Source: Phaeodactylum tricornutum CCAP 1055/1
Taxonomy: Eukaryota; Bacillariophyta; Bacillariophyceae; Surirellales; Neidiaceae
Direction of reading: 5' to 3'
NCBI RefSeq assembly: GCF_000150955.2
Contig: NC_011675.1
Coordinates: 929,650-993,649, forward strand
Length of the DNA: 64,000 nt
In this document: piece by piece, positions 1 through 39,100 of the stretch
Numbering within the stretch: position 1 is the first letter of the stretch
Layout of the letters: the number at the start of each line of letters is the position of its first letter
Notes under the pieces: model-generated
Database searches by the model: none
Told to the model about the DNA's origin: nothing
The model's input: only the letters and a program-made list of their open reading frames with translations
Translations under genes and position numbers: made by a program

Positions 1-1092
1 CAGATGGGAAGGTACAAAGTTTTCGCTACGATGCTCATTGAACCTTGTGACAAAGTTGTCAACAAGTTGCCATCGGTGAACATGAGTGCTCATACCATCG
101 GGTCGGACTGGACATTGTTCACTCCAACGGATATATTTCCAGATATTGTCAAACCGTTGCCGGGACATTCCTGTGCGTCCAAATGAAGGGGCAGGAATGT
201 ACTTGGAGGGTGCAGTGGTGGACCATAGTTGGGCCCGGCTACTGAACTCAAACTTTGTAGTGAGTATGAGCATTCCAAAGAACCGAAGAAGTTCTCCGGA
301 TGTGATTGGATTCTTGTTTTGCTGTGCAAGCTGAGTATTTGTAAGCCGACACATAGTAGTCAGCTGGGTCGGCGGAAACATGAGCAGAAAATATTCGAGG
401 CGCGAAAATCTCACCCCATTGTCAGAGTCTTGACCAATAAGGTCACCAACTGAAGTACGGATATGGAAGTGCCTAACATAGACATGGCCATTCACATCCA
501 GCCGGGTTTTTCTTTCATTCACATACCACTCTGTTTGGTGCACTGTGGCTACCGGGTTTTCGGACTCTGTGTCAAGCGAGGTATCAGTGTCAACCAGGGT
601 CTCGACAATTTCGGCTACCGGGCTATCGGGCTCTGTGTCAACCGGGGTATTGGGCTCTGTGTCGACCAAGGTATCGGGCTCTATGTCAGCCGGGGTTTCA
701 ACCATTTCGGCTACCGGGGCTTCGACACTTTCTTCCATCAAGTTTCCGGCTTCCATGTCTGCTTCTGCTGCCTGCAAAGCCTCTGCTGCTAATTCCTCAA
801 TTAAGGACATTCCTTCATCTTCTGGCGGTACAAATGCCTTTACACTCCGAATGTTCAGTGTTTTTTCCTTGAACAAACTCTCTCCAAAATCATAAACTGC
901 TGTTATCAAAGTAAAGGTACGCCCGGTTGTAATGGATACAGGGGTGGTCGTGACGTCTAGAACCGTTCCAACAAGCCGCTTGGAGTGCTTGTTGACGCCA
1001 TATCTCCGTGCGCACTTGCTCAGATGCACAACATGACAAGCCTTTGCCGTCACCTTCCCTCCAATTCTAAGTCTAGGATCCCTCACTGGCAT
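1..1092 (-). CDS. PiggyBac-type transposase, N-terminal part (cut by window edge)
   Basis: The minus strand is open without a stop from an ATG at 1092 to base 1, giving 364 codons of a protein that continues outside the window. The N-terminal half is acidic and holds short D-T-E-P-D-T-P-V type repeats (roughly residues 120-190, DNA 540-720). After that come a stretch with MCRLTN, SGELLRFFGMLIL and a motif RQRFDNIWKYIRWS, which read like the start of the DDE_Tnp_1_7 (PiggyBac) domain, where a small conserved block of R-F-x-x-I-x-x-x-x-R precedes the catalytic core. The catalytic aspartates would lie to the left of this window, so activity cannot be judged. The ATG chosen is the first after in-frame stops at 1128-1126 and 1119-1117. 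The frame is clean, in contrast to the broken LINE next to it, so this copy is either young or domesticated. Family assignment is from remembered motif pattern, not a search. Confidence 0.8.
   Translation of the reverse strand, partial: MPVRDPRLRIGGKVTAKACHVVHLSKCARRYGVNKHSKRLVGTVLDVTTTPVSITTGRTFTLITAVYDFGESLFKEKTLNIRSVKAFVPPEDEGMSLIEELAAEALQAAEADMEAGNLMEESVEAPVAEMVETPADIEPDTLVDTEPNTPVDTEPDSPVAEIVETLVDTDTSLDTESENPVATVHQTEWYVNERKTRLDVNGHVYVRHFHIRTSVGDLIGQDSDNGVRFSRLEYFLLMFPPTQLTTMCRLTNTQLAQQNKNPITSGELLRFFGMLILTTKFEFSSRAQLWSTTAPSKYIPAPSFGRTGMSRQRFDNIWKYIRWSEQCPVRPDGMSTHVHRWQLVDNFVTRFNEHRSENFVPSHL
540..720 (-). repeat. Short coding tandem repeat (acidic D-T-E-P-x-x-P-V units)
   Basis: Imperfect 24-30 bp units on the minus strand encode repeated acidic blocks such as VDTEPNTPVDTEPDSPV inside the transposase N-terminal region. 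The same V-A-E-(I/M)-V-E-T motif occurs twice. This is simple-sequence expansion in a disordered region. Confidence 0.6.
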
Positions 1093-1189
1093 GTCTGACA
1101 ATGCACCAAGCCTAATTTACATGACTCAAACCAAGTATCGGAGATGTAATGGCCATTTCATTGACGTCCAGACAAGCCATTTTACCAGG

Positions 1190-12518: not shown

Positions 12519-13002
12519 ATGATTGCGGATCCCATGGCCGATCTAACCGGCGGGTCAGCAGCGCAACCCGATGCCAACCATAACGGCAATTCCAAGGAAG
12601 TCCTCGATCCTATTGCGATGCAATCAAACATGATGAGAATTGAACGAATTCGCTCGGTTATGGGGATTGCGGCAGGATGTGTGGCCGGCATTGGTGGACT
12701 GACGTCGTGGGAAGGACTCAGTACGTGTTCTCCGAGCAAATTATCCCTTGCGCAACCATGGTCGAGAATGTTTTTCTACTCCAGTTTGCTAACGGGTGCT
12801 TGCACTGTTTTTGTTTGCAGTTTGCTTCTTGATTTTGCATGTTTTCGTATGTGTGGCAGTTTGGGCTTGGAAGATGAAGTTCCAACTGCAATTGTACACC
12901 AAGCTCTCGTGGTTTGGCTACTTGACTACGTCGATCCAACCGACGGCCTTGTCGTTTACTCTGTTCTGGACGCTCTTTTACGGTCTCGTGTATTTGTATT
13001 AA
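12519..13002 (+). CDS. EMC6: ER membrane complex subunit 6
   Basis: Two exons, 12519-12720 and 12821-13002, with a 100-bp GT-AG intron in phase 1, giving 127 residues. The joined protein reads RIRSVMGIAAGCVAGIGGLT, then W-E-G, then ICFLILHVFVCVAVWAWKMK and a final TALSFTLFWTLFYGLVYLY. The family (EMC6/TMEM93, Rab5-interacting protein family) is about 110 residues with three membrane helices, the first with small glycine-rich residues; all fit. EMC6 is a core membrane subunit of the complex that inserts tail-anchored and multi-pass proteins into the ER. The unspliced frame gives a nonsense tail, which supports the intron. A tandem duplication covers the end of the gene. Confidence 0.9.
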
Positions 13003-13083
13003 AGCTATACCTCTTTTACGGTTCGTGTATTAGTATTAAAGCTCTACCTCTTTAAGGTCTCGTGTATTTGTATTAAAGACATG
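12973..13083 (+). repeat. Tandem repeat of about 37 bp covering the EMC6 stop codon
   Basis: Three units: 12973-13010, 13011-13047 and 13048-13083. Each carries cgtgtatt(t/a)gtattaaag. The first unit contains the real EMC6 C-terminus (G-L-V-Y-L-Y-stop); the other two repeat it in the 3' UTR with small changes. Confidence 0.85.
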
Positions 13084-13921: not shown

Positions 13922-14775
13922 CTTCCACAAACCTCCGTAGAAGAGACCAAAAATGGCGCAGCGAACGGACACGCGGGTGGTTGTGTTTTTGTTTTGGTGG
14001 TTGCGCGGTAGGCCCGTGAGTCCGCTGTGACCAAAAGTGATACTGTCGAACAACTACAGTAAGAATGTATGACGGGTAGTAAGTATTCTCTGTCCGTCAA
14101 TCAATCGAGTCTGTTTTTCCTCCAACGGTAGACAGTTGTGGGAAGATTGGGTTCTATTGCCATCACCACTACTACTACTACACGACTACGACTGCTACCA
14201 TCTCGTGGTTGGGTTTGTGTATGGCGAGGGTCGGTTATTTGGTTGGACGGCGTACAGACCAGTGCTGGAGTAGCTGCCAACTAGAGTAGAAAAAGCCGTA
14301 GTCCGCGAGATCCAAGGTCGGAACACTCCGGTCGGTACCAAGGTCAGACCCCAAAAGTCATTCGCGGGTCGAAATATACGGGTTCCGCTGCTCGTGGTCG
14401 GACTCTTTTGGCTCGTTGGGGCACTTTGGTTCCTTGTGAAAACGTGTTCCGAACGGACGAACCGAATCCCCTTGGGAGGTTTTCGAATTTCCCCCCCACG
14501 TCGCAGGAGGAAAACTACGGTAGCTCTTGCTCTACTCTACTAGTAGAGCCAACTAGTGGCTCTACTCTACTAGCTACTGTAACTAGCAAACGTGTGCCCG
14601 TGCCAAGGATACGGTCGATGTACCAAAGAGGCGGGGCATCTATCTACACACCAACACAACGGTCCGTTCCGATTCGATTCGCAGTCAATTCACCTTGCTT
14701 GTGCAATTAATTGCTCTTCTTTCTCCACAGGTGAGACTAAACAAACGTATTTCCATATCTAAAAAGGTGATAGAC
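13922..14775. other. Divergent spacer between FCF1 and the NPF/PH-like gene
   Basis: 854 bp with no gene recognised. It holds a CTA-rich run near 14165-14200, the inverted and direct repeats at 14529-14573, and a CAG-GTGAGA site at 14728-14736 that could be a leader intron donor, though no suitable acceptor is seen before the ATG. Confidence 0.5.
14529..14573. repeat. Paired 15-bp direct repeats with a palindrome
   Basis: gctctactctactag occurs at 14529-14543 and 14559-14573. Between them ctctactagtagag (14535-14548) is a perfect 14-bp palindrome, and agtagagcc (14542-14550) can pair with ggctctact (14558-14566) over a 7-base loop. Confidence 0.75.
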
Positions 14776-16836
14776 ATGGAAGGCAACAATCCGTTTGGTG
14801 CTCCCACCGCCGCCGCCGCTGTACCGGCAGGATCCACCACGTACCAAGACACGGCGGTAGAAAGTGGGGGAGGCAATCCGTTTGCGTCTCCGTCGTCACC
14901 GGATCCGTACGGTACAAACCCTTACGTAACTGCCACCACCGCACCCGACCCATCGTCGGCGTACGGTGCTCCGTCGGCCCCCAACGCCTACTACGGAGCC
15001 CCACAGCCACCACCACCACCACAACAATGGAACACGGGGTACGCAGCCTCCCACGCGAATCCGTATTCGACGACGGCGCCGACGAATCCACCTCCGCAAT
15101 CGTACGGCAACGCGTTGGTCCCCGCCCCGCAGTCTGCTAATCCGTACGCCGCAGCAGTCGTGACTCCGCAGTCACAATCACAACCTTCGCAGTATGCCTC
15201 ACAAGCCATGGTGCCGAGTACGCAAGCACCGGTGAATCCGTGGAGTGTGGGGGACTACCACGGAACTGCGACGACTCCAGCCGCAGGGTTTGATCCGTTT
15301 GCCCCTCCCGCTCCGACGCAACCCCAGCCCGGGTATGCTTCCGCCGGATCACCTCCGAATCCCTACGCCAACCAGGATGTCTTTGGTGATTCGACGACAC
15401 CGGCCCAGTCCGCTCCACTGGACGACGAAAACCCATTTGGTCCCTTTGACGCTCCGGCTCCCACTCCGGCTCCCGTCACGACTCTCGATCACTACCAATC
15501 GAGAGCGTTGGAACGTCGGGAGGATCACGGTCCACCGCCACCGCAGGAAAACCAGACACCACGGGACTATTCCGACGCCATTGTTCCACACAATCCCAGT
15601 GGCGAAGACAATCCCTACCCCGTGGGATCGTCCGAACGCAACCGCTACAGTCAAGAACTCGCTCGACAAGCGCCACCCGGAGCCTCCCCACTACCCAAGG
15701 CCGAACTCGTGCGCAAGAAAGGATTCGTGCTCTCGCGGATCTCGTTCCGGACAATTGTCATGAAGAAATGGAAACAGAGCTTTTGGGTACAGTATGGACC
15801 CCACACCATGCTGTGGTTCCGGACACAGGCCGATTTCGACGATTGGCTCAACAATCCCTACCACAATCAGCAACAACGCAATTTCATGATCAAACTCGCC
15901 GTTAATTTCGTGCACGATCTCTACAAACCCAACGTTCGCGGATACCAAGTCACACAGTGTCGCACCAAGGGATACGGCAACAAACTCGTACGCCAGTTCA
16001 AACTGGAACGGTGGATGGATTACGGACCCACTATTGCCGCAGCCTTTGGTTCTTATGATCCCAAAGAAGTCGACGCTTTGCGCGAAGCCCTCGTGGAGTG
16101 TATGCGGAACACACCCTTGAGTGGCGGTATTCGAGCCACGGGTGCCGTCCGACAAGATTACGCCGAACCACACGACGACAACGGCTATGACCGCCACCAC
16201 CAGGACAACAATGGCCACCACGACCATCACCACAACGGTGATCGCGGCGATTACGAAGGTCATTCCGGGGGAAATCGTGGACCGCCTGTGGACTACCACA
16301 ATCCCAACAATCGAAACGACAACCACCAGACGGAGCCAGAGTCCGTGGCATACGAGGAAGATTTGTTGGACGTCGATAACTGGGATGACGTGGGCACAGC
16401 GGGTGGACAAAGCAGTTACGGGCCGGATTCCAGTACCACACCATCCCAAGTGGGATACCCCAGTTACGGTCAGTCCCAAACGGTACCGTACGGACAGCCT
16501 CCACAGTTGCAGCAACCGTTCGGACAGCAACAGCCTCAACAACCGTACGGACAGCAACAGCCCCAGCAACCGCAACCGTACGGACAGCAACAACCCCAGC
16601 AACCGCAACCGTACGGACAGCAACAACCCCCGCAACCGCAACCGTACGGACAGCCACCGCAGTCGTACGGGAGTTACCCACAGCAGCATCAGGCGAACGC
16701 CACCCCCAACTACCAAAGACCGACGCCAAACGCCCCCGCAGCGTATCCCGGCGCCCCGGCTTATGGCAATGCCCCTGCGAATCCCTGGGATACGCCCCAA
16801 CCGCAGCCCACCTATGCTGCCCAGAATCCGTTTTAA
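14776..16836 (+). CDS. NPF-motif protein with PH-like domain and Q/P repeats (possible endocytic adaptor)
   Basis: 686 residues, intronless. The N-terminal 300 residues are disordered and rich in N, P, Y and A, with N-P-F motifs at the start (EGNNPFGAP), near 35 (GGNPFASP) and near 220 (ENPFGPFD); another N-P-F ends the protein (AQNPF). N-P-F is the ligand of EH domains in endocytic proteins. Residues about 308-445 look like a PH-type fold: ELVRKKGFVLSRISFRTIVM, KKWKQSFWVQYG, MLWFRTQADFDDWL, then QFKLERWMDYGPTIAAAFGS and EVDALREALVECM. A histidine/aspartate-rich linker follows (about 470-515), then P-Y-G-Q-Q-Q-P-Q-Q-P-Q repeats. I know no named family with this layout; a membrane-traffic role is inference. 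The frame extends upstream to a TTG at 14695, but ATG 14776 is the first methionine. Confidence 0.75.
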   Translation: MEGNNPFGAPTAAAAVPAGSTTYQDTAVESGGGNPFASPSSPDPYGTNPYVTATTAPDPSSAYGAPSAPNAYYGAPQPPPPPQQWNTGYAASHANPYSTTAPTNPPPQSYGNALVPAPQSANPYAAAVVTPQSQSQPSQYASQAMVPSTQAPVNPWSVGDYHGTATTPAAGFDPFAPPAPTQPQPGYASAGSPPNPYANQDVFGDSTTPAQSAPLDDENPFGPFDAPAPTPAPVTTLDHYQSRALERREDHGPPPPQENQTPRDYSDAIVPHNPSGEDNPYPVGSSERNRYSQELARQAPPGASPLPKAELVRKKGFVLSRISFRTIVMKKWKQSFWVQYGPHTMLWFRTQADFDDWLNNPYHNQQQRNFMIKLAVNFVHDLYKPNVRGYQVTQCRTKGYGNKLVRQFKLERWMDYGPTIAAAFGSYDPKEVDALREALVECMRNTPLSGGIRATGAVRQDYAEPHDDNGYDRHHQDNNGHHDHHHNGDRGDYEGHSGGNRGPPVDYHNPNNRNDNHQTEPESVAYEEDLLDVDNWDDVGTAGGQSSYGPDSSTTPSQVGYPSYGQSQTVPYGQPPQLQQPFGQQQPQQPYGQQQPQQPQPYGQQQPQQPQPYGQQQPPQPQPYGQPPQSYGSYPQQHQANATPNYQRPTPNAPAAYPGAPAYGNAPANPWDTPQPQPTYAAQNPF
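16504..16680 (+). repeat. Coding minisatellite, 33-bp units
   Basis: Units begin ccgtacggacagcaacag and encode PYGQQQPQQPQ. One unit of 27 bp is followed by three of 33 bp and a degenerate last one. Frame is preserved throughout. Confidence 0.85.
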
Positions 16837-16928: not shown

Positions 16929-19900
16929 TTACGCCAAGTCTTCCAATCGACACGGTGCCCGAACGGCCTGTGTAAAACCCTTGATGTACCGGAGGCGGAC
17001 AATTTGGGTCAACGGAACACCACTGCCCGTATGAGACGTTTGATGTTTGTGGGAACGCTCGACTCCCACGCGGGCCGCCGTACGGGCTGACCGCTGCTGC
17101 TTGACTTTGCGAGCCTGTAGTCCCAAAAAATTGTGGGCCGTAGCTTTGGTTGGTGATGGTGTTTTGCGGCGCTTGGCGAGTGGTGCGTCGGAACTACTAG
17201 CCGCTTCCCGTTTGTCGGGAGAGGAAGTGTTCATCGCGGACAATTCAGGCGCTGCTTCCATCGGGGCGGCCACCACGGAGGGCGCCGGCAGCTTGGACCG
17301 AACTTTCGTGGAGATCGCCTTGGACTGCGCTTGGGCTCCGAGATGGCGCATATTTTCGTGAAGCACACTTTGTGCCAGCAACTCTTTCATCTATAAGTAG
17401 TCAAGACAGCGAGGGCGAGCAAAAGGATGAGTGAGTGAACCAATACACGAGACACCGCCGCAAACGGTTCCGGCACCCACGACACAACGTACCGCTATGG
17501 GAATCTCAATTCGTTTTTGACTCTTGGCTCGCGTCAGGTCCATAAAGTGTGCGAGGCGATCGATTGGTGGCTCGAGACGGAGAACGCTGCCAGTGATCCC
17601 TTTGAACTCGCCCGGTGCGGCTTCCTCCTGCTCCGCGACATAACTAAGGCCCAAACATCGCAAAGACATAACGTGTCTGTGAAAGGAACCAAGTTCTGCC
17701 TTATTCAGAATTTGCAGAGACGTAGCGGCCCGATCTAGGGCCCCACTGCTACCTTCCCCTGCGGAAAGTACCCATAAGCTGTACGGGATGGTTTCCGTCG
17801 CCAATAAGCTCGTTGACCGACTTCGTGTCTGCATTGAAAGCCCTTCAGCAAACTTTTGCGCCAGAGACTGATTCGCTTCAAACTGGTAGCGACTGTCCAT
17901 AAGCTCCCGTGTTGAAAAGGATAAGTCCGGGCGCTGTTCGACGCGACACAGTAAATGAATCGCACCGGCGGTGGACGGAACCTGCCGCGGACACAGATCC
18001 GAACTCGACAACCATTCGTGAGCTGCTGCACAGCGGTCCAAGGTTGGGTCGATGTACGAAACGCGGAGTACATTGAGAAACAAAACATCCAGGATACGAA
18101 GATTGTCCCCAAAATTCTATAGCCACCCACGAAATGGTGTCAGTAACGACAAATGTACAATGTGAATTCTATCACCAATCTACAGTCTACATACCTGCAC
18201 AGCCTCGAAAATGCGCGTTGAGCTCGGGCGCTTGTCTTGCATGACACGCTTGCTATCAAGAAAGGTTCGATCCTTTCTCTTCCGAAATACGCTCGTGATT
18301 GTACCAGCCATATCGTTTCGTTCATCCTTGAGGCCATCCCCCGACATGGCACCGCGCAAGCTGTCGGACAAATCGATAACGGACGGGGCTTCTTCCGCGT
18401 GGGTGGCCAGCTCCTTGGACCGCGAGGACGCAAATTGCAAGGTGTGCAAACAGGAGCGAATGTCACCGGATGCGACCGATACTAATTGATTTAGCAACGA
18501 GCTGCCACCTCCCGCTGTTAGGTTTTCCGCCGTCAGCACGGATCGGAGGCGAGCAACCAAGCGAGCTGGCGACGGCGGATTGACGTGAAAGGCTTTTGCG
18601 TAAGGCAGTAAAGCCCGCAGCGTCGGCGCATATTTGTTGTTGCATATCAAAATTAAGGGGCGCCGCAAATATTGTGCTTTGGAAGCCTGTGACTTGGCTG
18701 GAATATCGGCTCGAATTATGTTCACAATGGCCTGTATGGAACCTTTGGCATCCGCACCATCAATCTCGTCCAGAATGACACAGTTGGGCTTTGGTAGGGA
18801 ATCGTCTTTGCACTCGTGGTTGTGTACACTTCTTCGCATCTTTGCAGTGTGGAGAGTTGTAGATTCCATGGCTCGAACGATTCGTTCCGTTAAAGCAGAA
18901 GCCGAACGTTCGTCCGATCCGTTGACTTCCAATGGACGATAACCAGCATGCCGGGCGACAATGTGCGCCAGAGTAGTCTTGCCGACACCTGGCGGTCCCG
19001 ATAACAAAATGACTCTACACGACTCTTCCGGGCGGCGATCTTGCCGACTGCTATCCCTACTCTTGCCACTGCCATGTTCGTTTTTGCGATCCGAATGAAA
19101 ATCCGATGGTTTGGCGGAGTACCCAAAATCGGGCCGCGGTGGGGGATCTCGCCGAAAGACGTACGGATCCCAGGCGCGCAGAGCTCGCACTACTTCGCGA
19201 TTGGTACGTTCGTCGGAAAGAAGATGCGCAAAGGACGTGGGGGCATGCTTATCTACCCACAAACGATGGTCCTCCGTCCCCAAATGACGGTGACTATCTC
19301 CGTGGACTGGGTCGTCATGATCAGTGTTACAGTGCTGCTGTTTGTCGTGTTCTTGCCTACGGCGAATTGCTTGTACCCGCTCCATGAGTTCCGCAACAGA
19401 AATTCCCAAAGAGTTGTGGGTATCGTTTTTGTGTCCGATACCTTCACCACCATCTAGCTTGCCGTCACTAGCGGGAACCTTCACGTTGAGATGCACACGG
19501 GTCCCGTCACCCAGCGTCATGGGTATTTGCTGGTGCCGTCCCACCTGTGGTCGTGTGGGCATGGAGTGCGATCGGTAGCAAGGTCGTTTCCGACCCATTT
19601 GGGATCGGGCTGATTTGGTGCCAAACTCCAACAATTGTGCATCCGGTGCCGACGGCAATCTATTGCTCACTTGTCTGGATATTCCCACGGATAGCGTGAT
19701 TTCCGGATTGTCGTCGTCGTCGTATGCTCCGAACAAGTCTCGATTCCGTCTCCTTCCCGGTTCCGACTTTTTCCATTCCTTGGCTTGCATGGTATTGCCG
19801 CTCGGCGAATTGGCTTGGCGAGGAGCCCTCCAATCCATATTGTAGTTGTACCTGAAAAAGTACGTTTGGCATTATCGCTCGTGAGTTTTGGAATCATCGT

Positions 19901-20250
19901 TCGTCGGTATGCCGATTGTTCGTTTCGTAATGCGACGTCACGTACCGCTCAAAGGTGAAGAGATTCTCGGTAGGCTTTTCGGCGCGTTGTTCGAATGCAT
20001 CACGAACACTAACGTGCGGATCTACAGGCGCAGGATTGACTACCGCACCCGTATTCTCGACCGGCACGAGTACTGACTGCTTGCCCATTGTCGTCGCATC
20101 GTTGGTCCTACTACCCGTCGTCGTTTTGGTAACGCCACCGCTGGCCATCATTTCTTCGAAAAAGTCTACATCGTATTCGGCCGTCGGCGGCTCGTAAGAT
20201 TCCTCAATGTAGTCATTGATGAGATCATCCTCGTCGAAATCGGGTTCCAT
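16929..20250 (-). CDS. CTF18: CTF18-type clamp-loader large subunit (alternative RFC)
   Basis: Four exons: 20250-19946, 19851-18195, 18116-17493 and 17390-16929. Introns are 94, 78 and 102 bp, all GT-AG (donors GTACGT, GTATGT, GTACGT) and phases agree, giving 1015 residues. The N-terminus is acidic ([27 protein letters not shown]). The AAA+ core has [18 protein letters not shown], Walker [21 protein letters not shown] (about 386), Walker [12 protein letters not shown], sensor 1 [10 protein letters not shown] and a sensor-2 region [14 protein letters not shown]. The C-terminus [15 protein letters not shown] ending EDLA matches the Ctf18 tail that binds Dcc1 and Ctf8. Ctf18-RFC loads PCNA on the leading strand and serves cohesion and the replication checkpoint. 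The gene is convergent with the NPF gene (92 bp apart). Confidence 0.9.
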
Positions 20251-20744
20251 TCTGCGTTATCCAAGACCGTTCCAAGCTAGTATTGGTTGACACGGCACAA
20301 AGCTGGGACGACACTTTCGATTGCACCGGCTGAAGAGTATTTCGTGACTACCCACCATCATGGTCGGTTGAGACGAGCAGGAAGTGGCACGGGACGGAAA
20401 GGCGCGAAAAAGCTGTGCAGGCGTTCCCTTGTTACGAATGTATTGGATTCATTGGATAGTTTAAAGCTATTGCGACATTGACATTCTTATGTTTCCATTG
20501 GTTCGTGTCACCCCAGGGACACATTTTGTGTCGGAATGGTGACGGTGAATCCGGTTTCATTTTCATACGGTAATACGCAGCTATATAGCGAACTTTCGGA
20601 TTCTGCAAAACAATTCACAATCAGTACGTGTGTTTACAGCTACAAATGTTTTTCGAGAAAGGTGGTGATACACAGGCTTTCCTTTTCCATCTTCATTCTT
20701 CATGAGGAGATACGATTTGCGCATCATTTTGTCCTCTCGTAGGC
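20251..20744. other. Spacer between CTF18 start and repeat-protein gene 1 end
   Basis: 494 bp without a recognised gene; probable CTF18 promoter near 20251-20400. Nothing else seen. Confidence 0.5.
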
Positions 20745-20957
20745 TCACAGCGCATCCCTCGCCTTCTGCAACGCACTGCGATCCATCCCGGCCTGGTCCT
20801 TTGCTTTCTGAGCACCGCTCCGGTCAATACCGACGTTGTCCTTGACCTTTTGCAGCCGACTGCGACCGACACCGGTATCATCCTTGTTACGTTGCGTGTG
20901 GCCCACTCCAAGCGTTTCCTTGGTTTGCTGGATCGCGGACTTGTGGTGGTCGTGCAT
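20745..20957 (-). CDS. Small 14-residue-repeat protein 1 (tandem paralogue)
   Basis: 70 residues, single exon. The sequence is hydrophilic and made of about four 14-residue units: SAIQQTKETLGVGH, then TGVGRSRLQKVKDN, VGIDRSGAQKAKDQ and AGMDRSALQKARDA. The consensus is (A/V)-G-(V/I)-D-R-S-(G/A)-x-Q-K-A-K-D-x. It is charged, has no cysteine, no signal and no membrane segment, and could fold as an amphipathic helix in the manner of LEA or CsbD-like stress proteins; that comparison is only by composition. It is the most diverged of the three copies (ends in L not M, with R for K in places). A conserved block lies 119 bp upstream of the ATG. Function unknown. Confidence 0.75.
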   Translation of the reverse strand: MHDHHKSAIQQTKETLGVGHTQRNKDDTGVGRSRLQKVKDNVGIDRSGAQKAKDQAGMDRSALQKARDAL

Positions 20958-21474
20958 ACTTTCAGATGGAAGCGAAGGCTTTTTTACGGTTCACAATGGA
21001 ATCAAACGTTTTTATAAGTGGAAAGTGATGCTCCATTCGGTTTGAAGAGTTGCCTTTGTAAATTGGACAAACCGATTTCGAGATCGAAGAGGGTCAAGGA
21101 AGCCCCAAACTTTTTTTACTTCAACATGGAGTCGCATTTGAAGTACTGAATCGTCACCAGTTGAGTCAAGGAGTCGCAGTGGGCACTTCAATGAGAATTT
21201 TGAGGGATGGACGACGATTGACCGTGAGATATCTCCGTCGCATCATTAGATTTGTTCGACGGTCATTACGACTCACACGGACTTGGAATGATCTCTAGAT
21301 ATGGTGCAGAATGACAAAAGTTGGCCAGTGCAGTTTCTTGCAACGATTCTAATCAAAATACACGGTAGCACAATAGTGGACACAAAAGTGATGCAAAGCA
21401 TAATACTATTTTCCTTCTCTGCCTTCATTATCACTGTCAGAACGCATTGCCGTCCTTTTCCTGCTGCATCCGGT
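20958..21474. other. Upstream region of repeat-protein gene 1
   Basis: 517 bp between gene 1 and gene 2. It holds the conserved upstream block (21076-21106) and one TCACTGTCA at 21431-21439, close to the stop of gene 2. No other gene seen. Confidence 0.5.
21076..21106 (-). promoter_or_regulatory. Conserved upstream block, gene 1
   Basis: On the plus strand tttcgagatcgaagagggtc and on to agcccc. It aligns with 21811-21843 and 22549-22580 at the same distance (119, 124 and 127 bp) from the three start codons. Confidence 0.6.
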
Positions 21475-21687
21475 CTACATGGCATCCTTCGCCTTCTGTA
21501 GCGCGCTGCGGTCTACGCCGGCTTGATCCTTGGCTTTCTGGGCGTCGCTAACATCAATGCCAACGCTATCTTTGGCCTTCTGTACACCGCTGCGATCCAC
21601 ACCGGCCTGATCTTTGTTGACTTGAGTGTCACCCAATCCGAGTGTTTCCTTGGTCTTCTGCATCATGGACTTGTCTTGGTCAGGCAT
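21475..21687 (-). CDS. Small 14-residue-repeat protein 2 (tandem paralogue)
   Basis: 70 residues: MPDQDKSMMQKTKETLGLGD, then units AGVDRSGVQKAKDS, VGIDVSDAQKAKDQ and AGVDRSALQKAKDA. It is close to protein 3 in the N-terminus (D-K-S-M-M-Q-K-x-K-E-T-L-G). Lysine and aspartate rich, uncharged overall, no hydrophobic core, no targeting signal. Expected to be cytosolic or nuclear and intrinsically disordered or helical. Like its neighbours it is a separate transcription unit as judged by its own upstream block. Function unknown; a desiccation or stress protectant is a guess from composition. Confidence 0.8.
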   Translation of the reverse strand: MPDQDKSMMQKTKETLGLGDTQVNKDQAGVDRSGVQKAKDSVGIDVSDAQKAKDQAGVDRSALQKAKDAM

Positions 21688-22203
21688 TTTGGTTTCGATT
21701 TGTTGTATGTACTTGAGTAGGCAACTGAAATAGTCAATTGATTGAATTTGTGAAACGAGATCGTCATCTGATGTTTTTCTTCATTCCATTCTACAAAAAT
21801 TCGGGAAGAAAATTCGGAGATCGAAGACCCTCGTGGAAAATCCATTCTTCTCGTTAGGAACGGAATGGATGATTGCGAAGATATACAGTCCCACAACGGG
21901 TATCGACTTCAATATACGACTGACTGTATAGTTGTATACTTCTTCACTCAGGAGCATCATCGACAGTAAGATTTGATGTGACCAGCAATACTTTTAAGCA
22001 AAACTGGGAACTTTTCCTTACTGATATTATGCAGATCGAATTTACCGGTTTGAGGACCTAGATGTTCTGATGTAGTTATTTACATTAGCATATTTTTACA
22101 AATAGACAGTAGAGAGATGATCACAGCTATTTACTTTATTTTTCCTACGCCTCCGCTCTCACAGCTGGAATATCAATCTCCGCTCCCTTGACCGAGCGCC
22201 TGT
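21688..22203. other. Upstream region of repeat-protein gene 2
   Basis: 516 bp. Holds the conserved block at 21811-21843. No gene recognised. Confidence 0.5.
21811..21843 (-). promoter_or_regulatory. Conserved upstream block, gene 2
   Basis: aattcggagatcgaagaccc followed by tcgtggaaaatcc on the plus strand; counterpart of the blocks upstream of genes 1 and 3. Confidence 0.6.
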
Positions 22204-22422
22204 TTACATGGCATCCTTAGCCTTTTGCACGGCACTGCGGTCTGTACCAGCGGTGTCCTTGGCTTGCTGAGCCCCGCTCTTGTCCACGCCGACATTGTCC
22301 TTGGCCTTTTGCATGCCGCTGCGGTCAACACCAGCATCGTCTTTCTTGTCCTGGGTATCGGTCATTCCAAGAGTCTCCTTGGCCTTCTGCATCATAGATT
22401 TGTCGTCGTTTTGTTCAGGCAT
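22204..22422 (-). CDS. Small 14-residue-repeat protein 3 (tandem paralogue)
   Basis: 72 residues: MPEQNDDKSMMQKAKETLGM, then units AGVDRSGMQKAKDN, VGVDKSGAQQAKDT and AGTDRSAVQKAKDA, ending in M. Two residues longer than protein 2 at the N-terminus. The three genes lie in the same orientation with nearly equal spacing (about 730 bp from start to start), which indicates tandem duplication of a gene together with its promoter. No intron is needed. Function unknown. Confidence 0.8.
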   Translation of the reverse strand: MPEQNDDKSMMQKAKETLGMTDTQDKKDDAGVDRSGMQKAKDNVGVDKSGAQQAKDTAGTDRSAVQKAKDAM

Positions 22423-22548
22423 CTTGATATTGTTTTTTGTGTTTCTGGAAAAGTATTGACAAGAATGGTCAATGTTGTAAATTTATGAGATATAGTATAG
22501 TATATTTGTTCCATCCAGTGCGCTACATGACTTGCGGAAGATGGAGAG

Positions 22549-22580
22549 ATTCAGAGTTCGAAGACGCTCAAGGAGAGCCC
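22549..22580 (-). promoter_or_regulatory. Conserved upstream block, gene 3
   Basis: attcagagttcgaagacgct followed by caaggagagccc on the plus strand, 127 bp from the ATG of gene 3. Confidence 0.6.
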
Positions 22581-23044
22581 ATGGGGTACTTCGGAATGGC
22601 ACGAGCAGAAGCCAGTGATTTTCGAGATTCCACAATACTCGATGGCAATGTGATGGCTGCGAACTTCAATCAATACTCCATATCAATCTTTTTCGTATGT
22701 TCTTTCGAAGTTCGATAGTACAATCGACGATCGCACATGCAAAGATACCATACCCAGCCGCGCAAACGACTGACGTAAAGTTCAAAATGGAGATATTCTT
22801 GAAAATAAGAGAAAGCACACACGACGAAATATACATTGTTCTCTTCACGAGACGCCGACTATGAAAATTCCGCCGGGACGGGAACCACTTCCGGATTCCA
22901 GCAAAGGCGAATGGATCCCATGGATCCCAAGAGCTGTAGACGGTGACTCGCAACACAGTTAAACTTGAACGTTAGCCCTTTGCTGTCTTTGGCGGACACC
23001 GGTGGGAAGCGTAGAGTTTTTTTTTGCATTGCTGCTCCCCGGAC

Positions 23045-23083
23045 TGACAGTGAAACATCATCTTGTATCCAGCTTGACTGTGA
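23045..23083. promoter_or_regulatory. Two TCACWGTCA-type motifs before VPS26
   Basis: TGACAGTGA (23045-23053) and TGACTGTGA (23075-23083), in the same orientation, 30 bp apart, immediately before the VPS26 start. Confidence 0.45.
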
Positions 23084-23101
23084 ATAGCTCTCGGAAGAAA
23101 A

Positions 23102-24397
23102 ATGAACGTTGTATGTAAGAATTATTTTGCCTCCGCGTAAGGCTTTGTTGATCCTATCCCTTCTTACGCTTCAGATTCTATCCTCTGTTTGTCATGCAAG
23201 GGATCTTTACTCGGCGCTTTGACCGGCAGTGGCGGTCCTGCAGTGGAGATTCGTTTGACGCCGCCTTCCTCGCAGGATATCGTCGCAATGGATCACGCGC
23301 CAAGCTGGAAGCTGCACCGGAATCCCTTTTGGAGAGTGAAGCATCCCGCTAGCGACAAGTTGATTACTCCCCAAACATCCGGCTTATTGCAACAACAACA
23401 GTTTGCACAGGGATATTTCGAGAACAGCGTACATGCGCCACACCAACAACGCGCAAATCACCAATCGAGTCCGCAATTCACGGGTTCTTCTTCGGATCCT
23501 TTGACGGATTCGTCGTCCATTGTTTACGCCTATGAAGCAAGTCAGGATGTTCAAGGGGCTGTCATCTTGCGATTGCCTCCAGGCAAAAAGGTGGAGCACT
23601 TGGGCATCAAAGTGCAATTTATAGGGCGCATCGATATGAGTATAGGTGTTCACGAAGGTCGCCCACACTACGATTTTATTAGCCTGTCAAAGGAATTAGC
23701 CCCGCCCGGATCTTTGTACCAAACTGAGACCATGTACACTTTTCATTTTAAAAACATGGACAAGGAATTCGAGTCTTATTGTGGGCGAAACGTGGCAGTT
23801 CGGTATATTGTCAAGGTCAAGGTAGAGCGCAAGTTTTTGCCCCCACTCAAGCAGGAACAGGATGTTTGGGTGCAGTTCCGTGGACAGGAGCCAATCTCAC
23901 ACGAGTCTATCAAAATGGAAGTTGGAATTGAAGACTGCTTGCATATTGAATTTGAATATGCCCGACGCCAATACCATTTGCGGGACACTATTACTGGTAA
24001 AATTCATTTTTTGCTCGTGCAAATCAAAATCAAACACATGGAGCTAGCTGTCATTCGAAGGGAAACCAGTGGAGAAGGTGTTGCGCTCGCAGCAGCTACA
24101 GACGCCACCAATCAAGGAAGTTCTTCCAACTCGAACGTCGACGCCGCTGGCAATATTTTTACCGAAACTCAAACCCTTGTCAAATACGAAATCATGGACG
24201 GTGCACCCGTCAAGGGTGAAGTCATTCCGGTGAAATTGTCTTTGCAAGGTATTCCTGCTGATTTAACCCCAACCTATACAGCCGTTAACAATCGTTTTTC
24301 AGTGCGGTATTTTCTGAACCTGGTCTTGGTGGATGAAGATGACCGTCGGTACTTCAAGCAGCAAGAAATAATCTTATGGCGGAAAGACTTGGGGTAG
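23102..24397 (+). CDS. VPS26: Retromer subunit VPS26
   Basis: Exon 1 is only 13 nt (23102-23114); a 60-bp intron (GTAAGA to TTCAG) leads to exon 2, 23175-24397. The product is 411 residues, starting MNVVYSIL. Arrestin-like fold motifs are clear: GVHEGRPHYDFISLSKELAP, ETMYTFHFKNMDKEFESYCG, VAVRYIVKVKVERKF, then IGIEDCLHIEFEY-like text and GEVIPVKLSLQGI, ending FFLNLV-type strand and YFKQQEIILWR. VPS26 binds VPS35 in the retromer, which returns receptors from endosomes to the Golgi. About 70 residues near the N-terminus are extra and Q/H/S-rich (about 65-120), and a serine/asparagine loop sits near 310. The exon 1 model rests on splice sites and frame, not on transcript data. Convergent with the exonuclease gene, 47 bp apart. 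Confidence 0.92.
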
Positions 24398-32693: not shown

Positions 32694-35194
32694 TTAGAAG
32701 ATGCCTTTCTTTTTTACATCTTCGAACTCCTTCTCAAATTGTTGAATAACGGCCCGACGTTGCAACTTGTTGGCGGCCGTCAGACACCCGTTCTCAGGCG
32801 TCCACGGTGAGTCCAAAAGCGCCACCGCAACCAGCTTTTCCAAATGACTTAAATCACTCTTGGCGTGTTCTTTCTTCATGTCATCGAGGACGGCATTATA
32901 AACTTCCTTGGACGTTTTGAGCTCCTCCCAGTCACCCTTGAGTCCCTTTTCTTGGGCCCACTTGGTGGTGTAGGGCTGGCTGAGCTGCATGATTGCGATC
33001 GGTCGGTCCATGTCCCCGTCGCCATAGCAGCAGATACCACCCTGCACGGCATCTACGAACTTCGAGTTGCCGTAAGTCATCTCCATCTTCTCGAGAGCAA
33101 TATACTCGCCACCCTTGAGTTTGACCAAGTTCTTTTTGCGATCCACAATGCGAATGCTACCGTCCGCCATGAATTGACCAATATCACCCGTATGGAACCA
33201 GCCATCTTCCTTGAATTCGTCTTTGGACTTTTCGGCCATCATGTAGTATCCACAGGTGATGTTGCTGCCTCGAACAACAATTTCACCACGACCGAAAATG
33301 GGGTTTCCCTCCACATCCCGGCGATCGGTAGAAAGATAGGACTGTCCGGCCTTGTCACCTACATCAGGAGTCGACTCAAGCTTGACTTCAACCGAAGCAA
33401 TGGGGACACCCGCAATATTTCCACGTGTATCGGTAAAGTCCTGAATCGTCAAGCCGGCGCAGGTTTCCGTCAATCCCTATGCATTATAAAAAGCAAGAGC
33501 GTCAATAAGCGGTTGGTTTCGTCCAATGGAACGCTGGTATTACCAACTTTTGAGAGACTTACATATCCTTGAATAAAAGTCACACCAAAGGCTGCTCGAA
33601 TAAAGTCTTGCACCTCGGTATTCAACGGTCCTCCTCCCGAGACGGCGAGACGCAATTGCCCGCCTACCACCTTGGCAAACTTCTTAAAGACGAGCGCCTT
33701 GAACAGCGGGGTATCGAATCCGTGTTTCAGGGCAAAGGATCGCCAGGCAAATCCCGTTTCCACCAACATTTGCGCCACGGGTGAGGCTTGATGTACCTTG
33801 GCTTCAATGCCCTTTTTGATAGTGTCCCAAATTTTGGGCACCGCTACCATAATGGTGGGCGAGAACTGTTCCAAGGCACCAATCGGATAGGCACCGGTTG
33901 CACTGAGCGATTTGGGATCGGCATAGCACAAGGTGCATCCCATGGTGATCATAAGAAACTCGGCCATGAGTTCCAAAATATGCGCCAGCGGCAAATAGGC
34001 TAGATAGGTTTCGCCACCCGGGACAACTTGCAGGGCTACGTCGCCCGCGGCACAGGCACCGACGATTTGACGGTGTGTGACGATGACTCCCTTGGGTTTG
34101 CCTGTGAGTAGCGAGACGAGGGGCAATAATATAAACAAAATAGGCAAGCTGGGTGAGATTCGGGTCCGCGTTGGTGGTGGGTCGTCGTTCTTTGGCGAAC
34201 GTGTGTGTGTGTGTGTGTACATACCGGTGGATCCACTGGTGTACATGAGTACGGCACAGGAATCGGCCTTGGGCGGTGTCGGTGGGTAGGCCTTGGTATC
34301 ACCCGACGCACAGAATTCGTCAAAGGACACAATTGTCACACCCTTGGGAGCCTTGGGCATTTCAATTGTTTCGTTGGGCGCTACCAAATCGTCCGTGTAG
34401 ACAATGTACTTGAGCGAGGGCATACTGGAACACTTCTGGGCCAACCTGGATACATCCTTACGGTTGCAAACGATAACGGGTATGATATTGTCGACGACAG
34501 CTTCGGCAACGGCGTCCATCCCGAGCGTCGCGTAGACGGTGGTCACGGTGACGCTTTGCGTAAAGGCGCCCATGGCGGCGATCATCCATTCGGCACAGGT
34601 GTTTTCGAAAATAGCGATCCGACAGGGCGTCGTGACTTGCTCCAGAGTCGTCGAGTAGGGCGCCGGCTGCACTCCCGCCGATCGGAGGGCGGCACCGAAC
34701 TGATTGGCCTGTTGACCGACTTGAGCGTAGGTCTTCCACGTGGTGTCGGGACCGAATTCCTTGATTTTGGGCGTCCGCCAACCGAGAAAGTGGCGGGTGC
34801 CCATGCAGTGGCGGGATCCGAATCGCTCAAAGGCGACCTTGGTGATATCGTACAAAGTTTCCATACCCGGACGCGGTGTAGTAATGAGCTGCGCCCTAAA
34901 GCGGGGGTCGACACGGTGCGATTCATCGTCGGCCACGGGGACGGTCCGCAGTTGGTCGGCAGAGGTAATCTTTCGAATGATTCCTAACCATCCAAAGGTA
35001 ACAATCGTCAACTGGAGATTGCAGAATACAGTTGCGGCACCACAAGTGTGAGAGTCACGACGTTCAAACGATAGAGAAAGTACCAACAGAAACACTATAA
35101 CTAACTAACACAGTTACGGTACCGCAACGACACGTACCAAAAGGTCGATGGCAATGAGCAGAATCTTGACGGGCAAGAACAAAAGGTATTTCAT
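32694..35194 (-). CDS. LACS: Long-chain acyl-CoA synthetase, N-terminally membrane anchored
   Basis: Four exons: 35194-35138, 35011-34225, 34101-33563 and 33476-32694, joined in consistent phase (introns 126, 123 and 86 bp), 721 residues. Exon 1 plus the start of exon 2 give a hydrophobic anchor, MKYLLFLPVKILLIAIDLL then LTIVTFGWLGII. AMP-binding signature YTSGSTGKPKGVIVTH is split by the second intron at the glycine. Others: YLPLAHILELMAEF, VSGGGPLNTEVQDFIR, IQGYGLTETCAG (junction of exons 3 and 4), GWFHTGDIG and DRKKNLVKLKGGEYI. The enzyme activates C12-C22 fatty acids with ATP and CoA for lipid synthesis or oxidation, on ER, plastid or lipid-body membranes. The second intron is 123 bp, has no stop in frame, and contains a (GT)9 run on the plus strand. 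Last two residues before stop are I-F. Confidence 0.93.
34201..34218. repeat. GT microsatellite inside a LACS intron
   Basis: Nine GT units (CA on the coding strand), directly after the donor site of intron 2. Confidence 0.95.
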
Positions 35195-36165
35195 CTTGAC
35201 GACAAGCGCAATTGGTAAGGCAGATGCACGCGATTTACAGTCAATCAAGAACGGCAGCGATTCGGTAGTTTCCTTTCGTCACGGAAGTTGAAAGAGTTCC
35301 TCGCACTCGTTGAGGCGAGAGTATCGAAAGTTAACAGTAAGGGCAGGAAAGAGAAAAAAACAGTAGGCACCTCTCGGCGCTGGATCTTATTCTGCGCGGA
35401 GACGATCCTCGTCACACGAGGGTCTGGAATCGACAGGGAAACAAACAGACGCTGCGCCATGGAATGCCGTCGCTGTTGAGGCCGAATCTTCACAGGTTAG
35501 TCCGTGACGTGGAATGTTGGCGGTCCGGGATCCGTCGCGAACGACAACAGTACGGGTTTTGGAATTTCGCACGATACGCATTTTGGTAACGGTTTGTTAC
35601 GTACGTTAGTTACGTTTCCAAATTCATTAGTAGGAATCGCCCTTCACGCTGCTCTCTCTAGTCAGCTACTAGAGGCACGTATACGACAACCCGTCTGTAG
35701 TTTTGCGTCTGCTTGTCCGTCAGGCATGTCCCAACCTACTCCAGGACATTGGAGTAGGTTGTTCGGTAGGGGTAGGTAATGTCGTTTGTCCTTCGTCTGT
35801 TCGAATGATGTGGTCTATCGTCTGTGCATCGTTGGAATATATATTCACACTACGATGCCAAAGCGCCAGACGCGCCTTGTTTACACCCCGATCCACTCGC
35901 CGCAATCGTAGCCCATCCAACCCGCACTACCCGCACTACCACCACCACCGTGATTGGGGCAGGGTCCAGCGGTACCGACACCCCACCCAAGTCCACCGGG
36001 CTCGTTTCATGCCCCAGAACCATATTTCATTGTCGCTTCCCGCGATCCCGTTCCCGTAGTCTGATTGTGTCTCGTTTGGGACTATCGTGGACCTCTCGGC
36101 TTGTTGTTTGTCTGCCTGCCTGCCTGCCAAGCACCCAAACCACATTCCACTCACCGAGCGCCACC
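35195..36165. other. Divergent spacer between LACS and CstF-77
   Basis: 971 bp. Holds a strong hairpin at 35732-35761. The frame of CstF-77 is open from 35824 but with no ATG before 36166, so this is taken as leader. No separate gene recognised. Confidence 0.5.
35732..35761. repeat. Perfect inverted repeat (11-bp stem, 8-base loop)
   Basis: caacctactcc (35732-35742), loop aggacatt, ggagtaggttg (35751-35761). A second partial copy of ggtagg follows at 35765-35777. Lies about 410 bp before the CstF-77 ATG. Confidence 0.8.
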
Positions 36166-39100
36166 ATGGCGGGGGATCCACGCCAGCCACCGCAGCCGTC
36201 ACCGGAATCGGCGCATATCGGAGACAAAAAACCCGAGACGGCACGATCCATTCTATGGAGTGCTGACGATCATCCCGACGAGGAACTGGAAGATGTGGAT
36301 TTGCCCTTGCCAGTCGTCGATCATCCGTTGACCGTGCCGTTGTCGACGAACGCGTCGCACCCCGTACCGGCGGCGGATCACGAACTGATATCCCGGATTC
36401 TGGTACCGTCTCCGTTTCCTCATCACCACGCGGGCCCCACCAGCGCTCGTTTCAGGAATGCCTTGAATCGGGTACAGACTCAACCCACTGCGGACGTCGA
36501 AGCCTGGCAAGCCCTCTTGACGGAAACGCAAACGTGCTACAAACAGATTGTGGCCAACAACACATTGACAAACTCCGTTACGCACCCGTACACAACCGAC
36601 GCCGAGACGGATGTTGTTGCTCGCGTCAAACAACAACAATTGGATTGGGTGGAATCCTGCTACGGTGCCGTCTTACGCTACTTCCCCTACGCCAGTAGCC
36701 ACGTACACACCGTGGCAGAAATTCTGTGGACACTGTCGTCGCACGGCGTCGCGGAAGAACAGCAGTTACTTGTATTCGACGGCACCAACCATAGTCACCA
36801 CAGTACCATCAACGCCTCGTCTGTGTCTCCCCAACGAACTCAACTGTACGAAGCCAAACTGGAACGACTCTTGTCTCGCTATCTCGGTGTCACGTTCGAC
36901 CATTCCTCGTCCGGTAGCAATTATCCCAACGGTCGGGACGCCGATACGCCACCGTCCCCACCCGAAAACACGGCACTACCCGGAATGTGCGATTGGATGG
37001 TAGAATTGTGGTTGTTGTACGCTCGGAAAAAACGGCGTGACGCTCTACGGCACAGTAACCTCGCACAACAACAACAACTACCCGACGCGCGTGTATCTTA
37101 CGTTCGGGACCAAACGTTACAAGCCTACGAGCAGGCACAACCCTTTGTCGGACACGGTGAAAATAACGTCATCTTTTGGAAAGCATATTTGGACTTTGTC
37201 CGTTCCTGGACGGCCATGGCCAATGAGGACGCGAAAAACCATCACGCGGTGGCGCAACAGCAAATGGTGCGACTCCGGACCATTTATCAGGCCTTGATCA
37301 AGTATCCCATGACGGGATTGGATCAGCTGTGGCAAGAGTACGAAGCCTTTGAGCGGGGTCAGAACGAAACACTCGCGCAGGCGTTGACGCAGGAACTGTT
37401 GCCCACGTACCAACACGCCCGGACCGTGTATCTCGAACGACACCGTGTGTACGATACCAACGATCTACAACTAGGTCGACTCGCCACGCCACCGGCGGAC
37501 AATGCCGTCACTCAAGAAGAAGATTACGAAACGAAACGAGCCGAAGAGCAAGCATTACTGCGTGCGTGGAAAGTGCGGGTTGCCTACGAACGGACCAATC
37601 CGGAACGTTTGAATTCGAGTGAGTTTGCACGACGCGTCCGACAGGTCTACCAGGCGATGGTTTCGGTGCTGACGCGGTACCCAGAAGCTTGGCACATGTG
37701 GAGTACCTGGGAATTGTCCGTGGCCACCGGTACTACCACGACGTCTGATGTCACTGCTGATGGACGACACCACGAATCAACCATCACGTTGGCCCGTGCC
37801 GTCTTACAACTCGGACAAAGTCATATTCCAGACTGCACATTACTCGCGCATACCGAAGCCATCCTAGTCGAACTTCATGCAGTGGATCCCAAATCATGCT
37901 TAAATGTCATGGAACGGTTTGTGGATCGTAGCCCCAATACTCTCGGCTTTGTTCTATATCAGCAACTGACGCGACGATATCAAGGTATGGAAGCTGCGAG
38001 AAAGGTGTTTGCACGTGCACGACGCGTATTGGTAAATCCGGCCGAAGCCGCGGCCGCTGCAGCGAAACAAGATGTCCGGACTGAGGACGGGGTTGATGCA
38101 GAGAATCATCCACACGACGAGGGAAGCGGCGGCAAACGCTGGGTAGTGACAAATAGATTAGATCCTAACATTGGACCGACAAATGGGCAACAGGTGCAAG
38201 GTGCTACCGAAACGACGACAGGACAAGAAGGGGTTGTAGACGGAAGCGAAAAACATCCACCGGGTGTTATTACTTGGCACCTATACGCCTCGCACGCAAA
38301 CATTGAGCACAGGGTCAACAAGGCACCGGAAGTTGCAGCGCGAATTTATGAGTTGGGTTTGCGGAAGCACGCGGCCTTTTTGACCGTACCGTCCTACGTA
38401 ATGCGATACGCCCAACTACTCCTGGAATTAAACGATACAATGAATCTACGGGCCTTGTTAACTCGCGCTGTCGCTGCTTGTGAGGCCCAAGAAAAGGAAA
38501 ACTCCCTGGCGTTGCTCTGGAACATGACTTTGCATTTTGAGTCGGTCATGGGAGGGTCCGATCCAACTAGTGCCGTAACGATGCAGAAAATAGAACGACA
38601 ACGTCGTGCAGCCCTGATGGGTGCTAACGTGGAAGAGGTAGCCACTGGAGGGTTTGTTGGAATTAATGAACCAGCCTTGATTGGTGCTCAAAAATCCACT
38701 ATTGCAGACCAGTTGGTGCGAACGGAAAGCTATGATACGAGTTCCTCTATTGTAAATGGAATGAACCGTGCGGTGGATGTTTTGGAAATAATGGGGTTGT
38801 GGGGAAGCGGGGAGTCATCAGTGGATCAAGCTCGTCGTCGGATCAAGCAAAGCAAAAACCGGGAAAGCGAAGTTGATATTTCCGGTGGGAAGAGCGACAC
38901 AAGTTTTCAAAAGCGACTCGAGTACCAAAACGCAGTATCGGCAGGGTTCTCACCAGAGGCAGGAACGACTGATGGCACCGCCATAGGCAACAAGATTATG
39001 TCAGCTCGTGAGCGCTATCAACAGGGAGCTATAGCGGTCGCCTCCGGTGGTGCGGTTGGCTCGAGTGCAATTATTATGGCAATTCAGCAAATGCCAGATT

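Follow-up and report, generated by a model that had tools for sequence, protein, structure and literature searches.

Three small open reading frames in tandem constitute a genuine gene family, which is under selection and has no match in the libraries tried. All three lie on the minus strand of the window, i.e. the complete stretch of 64,000 nucleotides that was analysed: copy 1 at 20745..20957 (70 residues, net charge +5, counted as K/R minus D/E), copy 2 at 21475..21687 (70 residues, net charge 0), and copy 3 at 22204..22422 (72 residues, net charge -1). Over 211 nucleotides, the DNA copies are in register with spacings of 730 and 729 bp; identity to the first copy is 73% for the second and 70% for the third. 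At the protein level, copies 2 and 3 share 71% and 62% of the residues with copy 1 and 75% with each other, and these values together with the regular spacing bear out the original prediction that the same-strand genes are paralogous. Reading the sequences, we found that Cys, Trp, Phe, and Tyr are absent from all three proteins and, by eye, there is no signal-like hydrophobic stretch, in agreement with the earlier claim that the proteins contain neither a signal nor cysteine. A tblastn search of the window (no low-complexity filter, E ≤ 10) returned the three copies and one shifted-repeat match among them; matches elsewhere in the window are weak, the best one (36132-36350) having 26% identity at an E-value of 0.003.

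The coding status follows from the pattern of substitutions. Between copies, 46-53% of the third codon positions differ, compared to 19-27% of the first and 10-13% of the second positions. For the three pairs, the NG86 method gave dN values of 0.167, 0.221, and 0.170 and dS values of 1.76, 1.72, and undefined; maximum likelihood gave dN values of 0.179, 0.227, and 0.171 and dS values of 1.45, 1.76, and 9.04. YN00, which produced values for a single pair, yielded a dN of 0.272 and a dS of 0.786, which is not saturated. Note that exact dS values are unreliable on 69-70 codons; in every comparison that defines dS, however, dN is much smaller. The comparison of dN (0.17-0.27) with dS (0.79 to saturated) indicates that the copies are coding genes under purifying selection; the relaxed codon substitution that had been named beforehand as a finding against the family is contradicted, as dN is far below dS. 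That the copies are chance or non-coding repeats has hardly any probability left, being contradicted by the codon pattern and by length differences that consist of whole codons only and occur only near the N-terminus.

Each protein carries at its C-terminus three units that vary around the form (A/V)-G-(V/I)-D-(R/K)-S-x-x-Q-K-A-K-D-x. By reading, a further clear unit was recognized at the N-terminus of each copy (DKSxxQKxKETLG, with the variant HKSxxQQTKETLG in copy 1), followed by a second unit, which is degenerate and comprises 12 residues. The repeats proposed originally are real, but the proposed number of three to four units per protein was slightly too low, since we read four clear units and a degenerate one. 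When the three proteins are compared with themselves, identity is highest at shifts of 14 and 28 residues. At shift 14, the fraction of identical positions is 34%, 36%, and 34% for copies 1, 2, and 3; at shift 28, copy 2 reaches 43%. When shifts from 4 to 30 were considered, none of 5000 shuffles of any of the three proteins attained the value of the best shift, and among the 294 Met-started frames of 40-600 residues in the window, the copies rank first, third, and fourth in self-periodicity. Considering the last three units and summing over codon positions, an equivalent unit differs between genes in 9-15 of 42 nucleotides, whereas different units inside one gene differ in 12-21 of 42. These ranges overlap; on average, however, equivalent units are closer, which suggests that the repeat protein probably predates the gene duplication.

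New here is a conserved block upstream of the three copies, which suggests a common regulation. Within the 250 bp preceding the ATGs, the best ungapped block of 30 columns contains 18 columns that are identical in all three genes. In contrast, 80 random triples of 250-bp segments, which began outside 20300-22900, gave only 10 to 13 identical columns (6, 43, 26, and 5 triples with 10, 11, 12, and 13, respectively). The block lies on the minus strand at 21080..21109 (copy 1), 21817..21846 (copy 2), and 22554..22583 (copy 3) and starts 152, 159, and 161 bp before the respective ATG. Its core TCTTCGAWCTC begins at -133, -140, and -142; it reads TCTTCGATCTC in copy 1 (21080-21090) and likewise TCTTCGATCTC in copy 2 (21817-21827), and TCTTCGAACTC in copy 3 (22554-22564). 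The span originally assigned to the cluster, 20745-22422, does cover the three genes but ends before the upstream block of copy 3. In gapped alignments of the flanks, 55 of 245 ungapped columns are identical in the upstream 330 bp (block excluded) and 70 of 298 in the downstream 330 bp; 60 random triples had a mean identical fraction of 0.208 (sd 0.029, maximum 0.281). As the identity of the flanks is near the mean of the random triples, they have decayed to background except for the block, and its retention points to a shared regulation of the three genes.

We read the block as a candidate for a constrained regulatory site, which may be part of a promoter or a 5' UTR; the tandem family is then probably co-regulated. 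Local gene conversion is an alternative source of the conservation. The core TCTTCGAWCTC occurs four times on both strands of the window (first-order Markov model: mean 0.12, maximum 1 in 60). Because the core was picked after viewing the alignment, this count is not an independent test and the comparison of the complete block is the better guide. The fourth exact site is at 32719 (+), within the minus-strand frame 32697-33476 and near its 3' end. Two further interpretations of the block were rejected. The consensus of the heat-shock element is nTTCnnGAAn; by eye, TTC and GAA are 6-7 bases apart in the block, which does not constitute a canonical element. An upstream coding exon is, by reading, unlikely, because copy 1 is one base short just after the core when compared to copies 2 and 3, and frames are not kept. 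The block offers a concrete handle on a putative regulator of the three genes.

The copies also show a biased codon usage. Seven large ORFs served as the reference. GC3 amounts to 141 of 215 codons in the copies and to 2341 of 4503 in the reference; among lysine codons, AAG makes up 23 of 29 and 97 of 190, respectively. The reference ORFs, which may contain some non-exon sequence, are the Pfam-matching ones among nine frames scanned, taken from the 28 stop-free frames of at least 250 residues. One of them, 33473-35101, is nearly as biased (GC3 332/543, AAG 19/26). Other codon preferences of the copies are weaker (GTC 5/14 versus 98/320; GCC 1/7 in copy 1). A codon bias of this kind marks well-expressed genes, and is not a proof of high expression.

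The surroundings of the cluster can be described as follows. The GC content of the window is 48.4%; ARAGORN detected no tRNAs in it, and a scan of 20000-23500 with Rfam at gathering thresholds found nothing. The frame 23189-24397 matches Vps26 and the frame starting at 35809 matches Suppressor of forked. An AAA protein is encoded at 18180-19838 (-), with an RFC1-lid match below the cut-off; the ORF at 19894-20250 (-), comprising 118 residues, is possibly its N-terminal part, which would imply a short intron between the two. The matches to Vps26 and Suppressor of forked and the AAA protein indicate nuclear DNA of a eukaryote, for which a diatom is a plausible source. At 14587-16833 (+), a stop-free frame of 749 residues has no Pfam match at E ≤ 0.001; it includes a 33-bp repeat (16512-16658) of Gln/Pro/Tyr/Gly-rich low complexity, where other frames are open, too. 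Tandem repeats were also found at 12973-13078 (37 bp, 2.8 copies, 90% matches) and at 587-718 (24/48 bp), the latter inside the stop-free frame 1-1116 (-).

The original statement that no named family with this unit is known was supported in the libraries tried: neither Pfam nor NCBIfam gave a curated family above its cut-off, and the PDB contained no credible match. Pfam models for copies 1 and 3 were missing at E ≤ 1, and at E ≤ 10, a limit at which filtering removes most matches with E-values higher than about 0.1, copy 3 added only DUF3813 at 1.5; NCBIfam had no match at E ≤ 1. In the PDB, nothing was found for copy 3 at E ≤ 1, and the lone match to a profile of the three proteins, Gp17 (chain 9vvp_S, E = 0.54), was taken as chance. 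In viral contigs, 76 pattern stretches were detected with the alignment of the three proteins, 45 with the C-terminal alignment, 10 with copy 3, and 9 with copy 2, none of which was confirmed by tblastn (E ≤ 1e-3). Similarly, none of the stretches in prokaryote genome contigs (99 for copy 2, 102 for the C-terminal alignment) was confirmed, and a tblastn search of phages with copy 2 gave no match at E ≤ 1. That prokaryotes yielded no relatives is what one would expect of a eukaryotic family. Titles and abstract openings among the matches listed from the diatom, Phaeodactylum, and Hsp12 literature do not describe the tandem family, nor was QKAKD found in the Phaeodactylum literature.

The three copies are probably stress-protection proteins, or similarly abundant ones, of an unnamed type; the codon bias, the upstream block, and the Gly-rich hydrophilic composition argue for this indirectly. 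More specifically, we give roughly even credence to a family of hydrophilin-like, conditionally helical proteins that would work as Hsp12 or LEA proteins do. Hydrophilins are characterized by a Gly content >6% and a hydrophilicity index >1. With 10.0%, 8.6%, and 8.3% Gly and GRAVY values of -1.22, -0.98, and -1.32, copies 1, 2, and 3 resemble them in composition, copy 2 being borderline on the GRAVY scale used. The best-supported mechanism, which we derive by analogy, would be a disorder-to-helix switch at surfaces, as for Hsp12. In dilute solution, the chain is probably mostly disordered. Each 14-residue unit, approximately G(V/I)D(R/K)SxxQKAKDx(A/V), would form a single short helix with roughly three turns, beginning at an Asp/Ser N-cap and stopped by the Gly of the next unit; positions 7, 10, and 14 of the unit hold small or aliphatic residues. 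Upon water loss or contact with a surface, i.e. a membrane or a client protein, the chain would turn into a string of short helices, which might coat and stabilise this surface, as is thought for Hsp12 and group-3 LEA proteins. The coding pattern, the purifying selection, the repeat layout, the upstream block, and the codon bias are observed; we infer the capping of the helices, their conditional formation, the binding to surfaces, and the induction by stress.

PMC3407059 describes yeast Hsp12 as lacking structure in solution; on SDS micelles, it adopts four amphipathic helices that move independently of each other. According to PMC6054528, lipid vesicles are remodelled by the protein in vitro, and it contributes to the tolerance of desiccation. 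Composition alone is no proof of an Hsp12-like function, because the latter source finds charge, glycine content, and disorder to be insufficient for the role of Hsp12, which the hydrophilin Stf2 does not have. AlphaFold2 models were computed from the three close sequences lacking the first Met (residue n of the models corresponds to residue n+1 of the protein), with copy 1 or copy 2 placed first. No compact fold was predicted; the models consist of separate low-confidence helices (mean pLDDT 60.6 and 61.6, pTM 0.24 and 0.23), which comprise in model numbering residues 7-14, 23-26, 33-40, and 47-68 with copy 1 first, and 7-14, 18-26, 34-40, and 47-68 with copy 2 first. There is about one helix per unit for the first three units. 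The last two units, however, make up one merged helix that spans a Gly, which speaks against Gly as a stop. For 18-residue segments at an angle of 100 degrees, the hydrophobic moment reaches at best 0.33, 0.30, and 0.27 in the three copies, and the mean hydrophobicity does not exceed 0.18; taking the chain as a whole, the strongest signal is not at 100 degrees but at 126-128 degrees in copies 1 and 2 and at 82 degrees in copy 3. This modest amphipathicity and the deviating angles count against the helix switch.

Alternatively, 14 residues may be regarded as two heptads, forming a coiled coil or docking to a partner, so that the copies would be binding or scaffold proteins lacking any stress role. 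Such a function would agree with the 14-residue register, which is kept across the three copies, and with equivalent units being closer between genes than units within a gene are. Nevertheless, we consider it unlikely: by reading, positions 7, 10, and 14 make no continuous heptad stripe through the Gly part, the chain is strongly hydrophilic, and the monomer models lack a compact fold.

Do the copies represent true, diverged HSP9/HSP12 proteins outside the fungi? Copy 2 is the only one with a match to HSP9_HSP12 (PF04119), at an E-value of 0.014; its 16.3 bits are far below the gathering cut-off of 26.3. Searched as separate pieces, the first 39 residues of copy 2 match this model at 0.28 and the last 40 match nothing at E ≤ 10. 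Four of ten shuffled versions of copy 2 matched other Pfam families with E-values of 0.029-0.32 (the lowest being 0.029, 0.071, and 0.085); taken alone, the E-value is weak evidence, as shuffles reach 0.029, although none reached 0.014. Local alignments to yeast Hsp12 (109 residues, sequence confirmed against PDB entry 2l9q) scored 50, 51, and 61 for copies 1 to 3, as compared to 32, 27, and 43 for the reversed sequences. Composition shuffles rarely reached these scores (15, 31, and 6 of 2000), but permutations that keep the 14-residue period did so in 67, 88, and 19 of 2000 cases. Moreover, Hsp12 was absent from the PDB matches (E ≤ 10) to the profile of the three proteins. Yeast Hsp12 has no 14-residue period: its identity at shift 14 is 10.5% and its best shift is no better than that of 4534 of 5000 shuffles. 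In their available text, PMC3407059 notes no obvious Hsp12 homologues outside fungi and PMC12750107 treats PF04119 in fungi. The likeness to Hsp12, including the common stretch KSxxxQxxKE, appears to go somewhat beyond composition and to be insufficient for assigning the copies to HSP9/HSP12; this membership, judged from these comparisons, is not supported, and we rate it as distinctly improbable.

Even less probable is that the copies are ordinary group-3 LEA proteins of the PF02987 type, despite the similar Lys/Ala/Asp-rich character of the repeated helices. The period of LEA group 3 is 11 residues, whereas the best shifts of the copies are 14 and 28. Neither LEA nor CsbD-like models were found in Pfam (E ≤ 10; for LEA, too, most matches above about 0.1 are dropped by the filters) or in NCBIfam (E ≤ 1). 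The original prediction had judged the similarity to LEA and CsbD-like proteins to be one of character only, a view in agreement with these results, and the sequence comparison lends LEA group 3 membership no support. LEA-type proteins do occur in stramenopiles, since a PF02987-type protein is reported for Aurantiochytrium in the available text of PMC12221091; the available text of PMC4009763 mentions LEA proteins for a polar chlorophyte and none for a diatom.

Returning to the hydrophilin-like, conditionally helical proteins, a bolder version seems possible, if rather doubtful: an unnamed, possibly lineage-specific family protecting surfaces, built on a Gly-capped two-heptad unit distinct from the 11-residue unit of LEA proteins and synucleins, which was amplified in tandem together with a conserved promoter element and which would have evolved an Hsp12-like job independently. 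If the protective role is confirmed, a eukaryotic microbe would possess a stress-protectant family of its own with a simple repeat unit. With hydrophilins, the copies share a high Gly content (8.3-10.0%) and strong hydrophilicity, but hydrophilins are a class defined by composition and not by descent, which is silent on ancestry. Group-3 LEA proteins (PF02987) likewise have repeated Lys/Ala/Asp-rich helical units; the copies differ from them by the period of 14 instead of 11 residues, by Gly in the units, and by the missing model match. Synucleins consist of KTKEGV repeats with an 11-residue period. KTKE in a repeated, possibly conditionally helical chain is common to them and the copies, whereas the period is different and the Pfam scan of the copies gave no synuclein model. 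HSP9/HSP12 proteins are, like the copies, small, hydrophilic, charged, and helix-prone; Hsp12 is longer, aperiodic at 14 residues, and locally more amphipathic (best moment 0.41 versus 0.27-0.33). If confirmed, the tandem family would add to fungal Hsp12 a further case for testing how small disordered proteins protect membranes.
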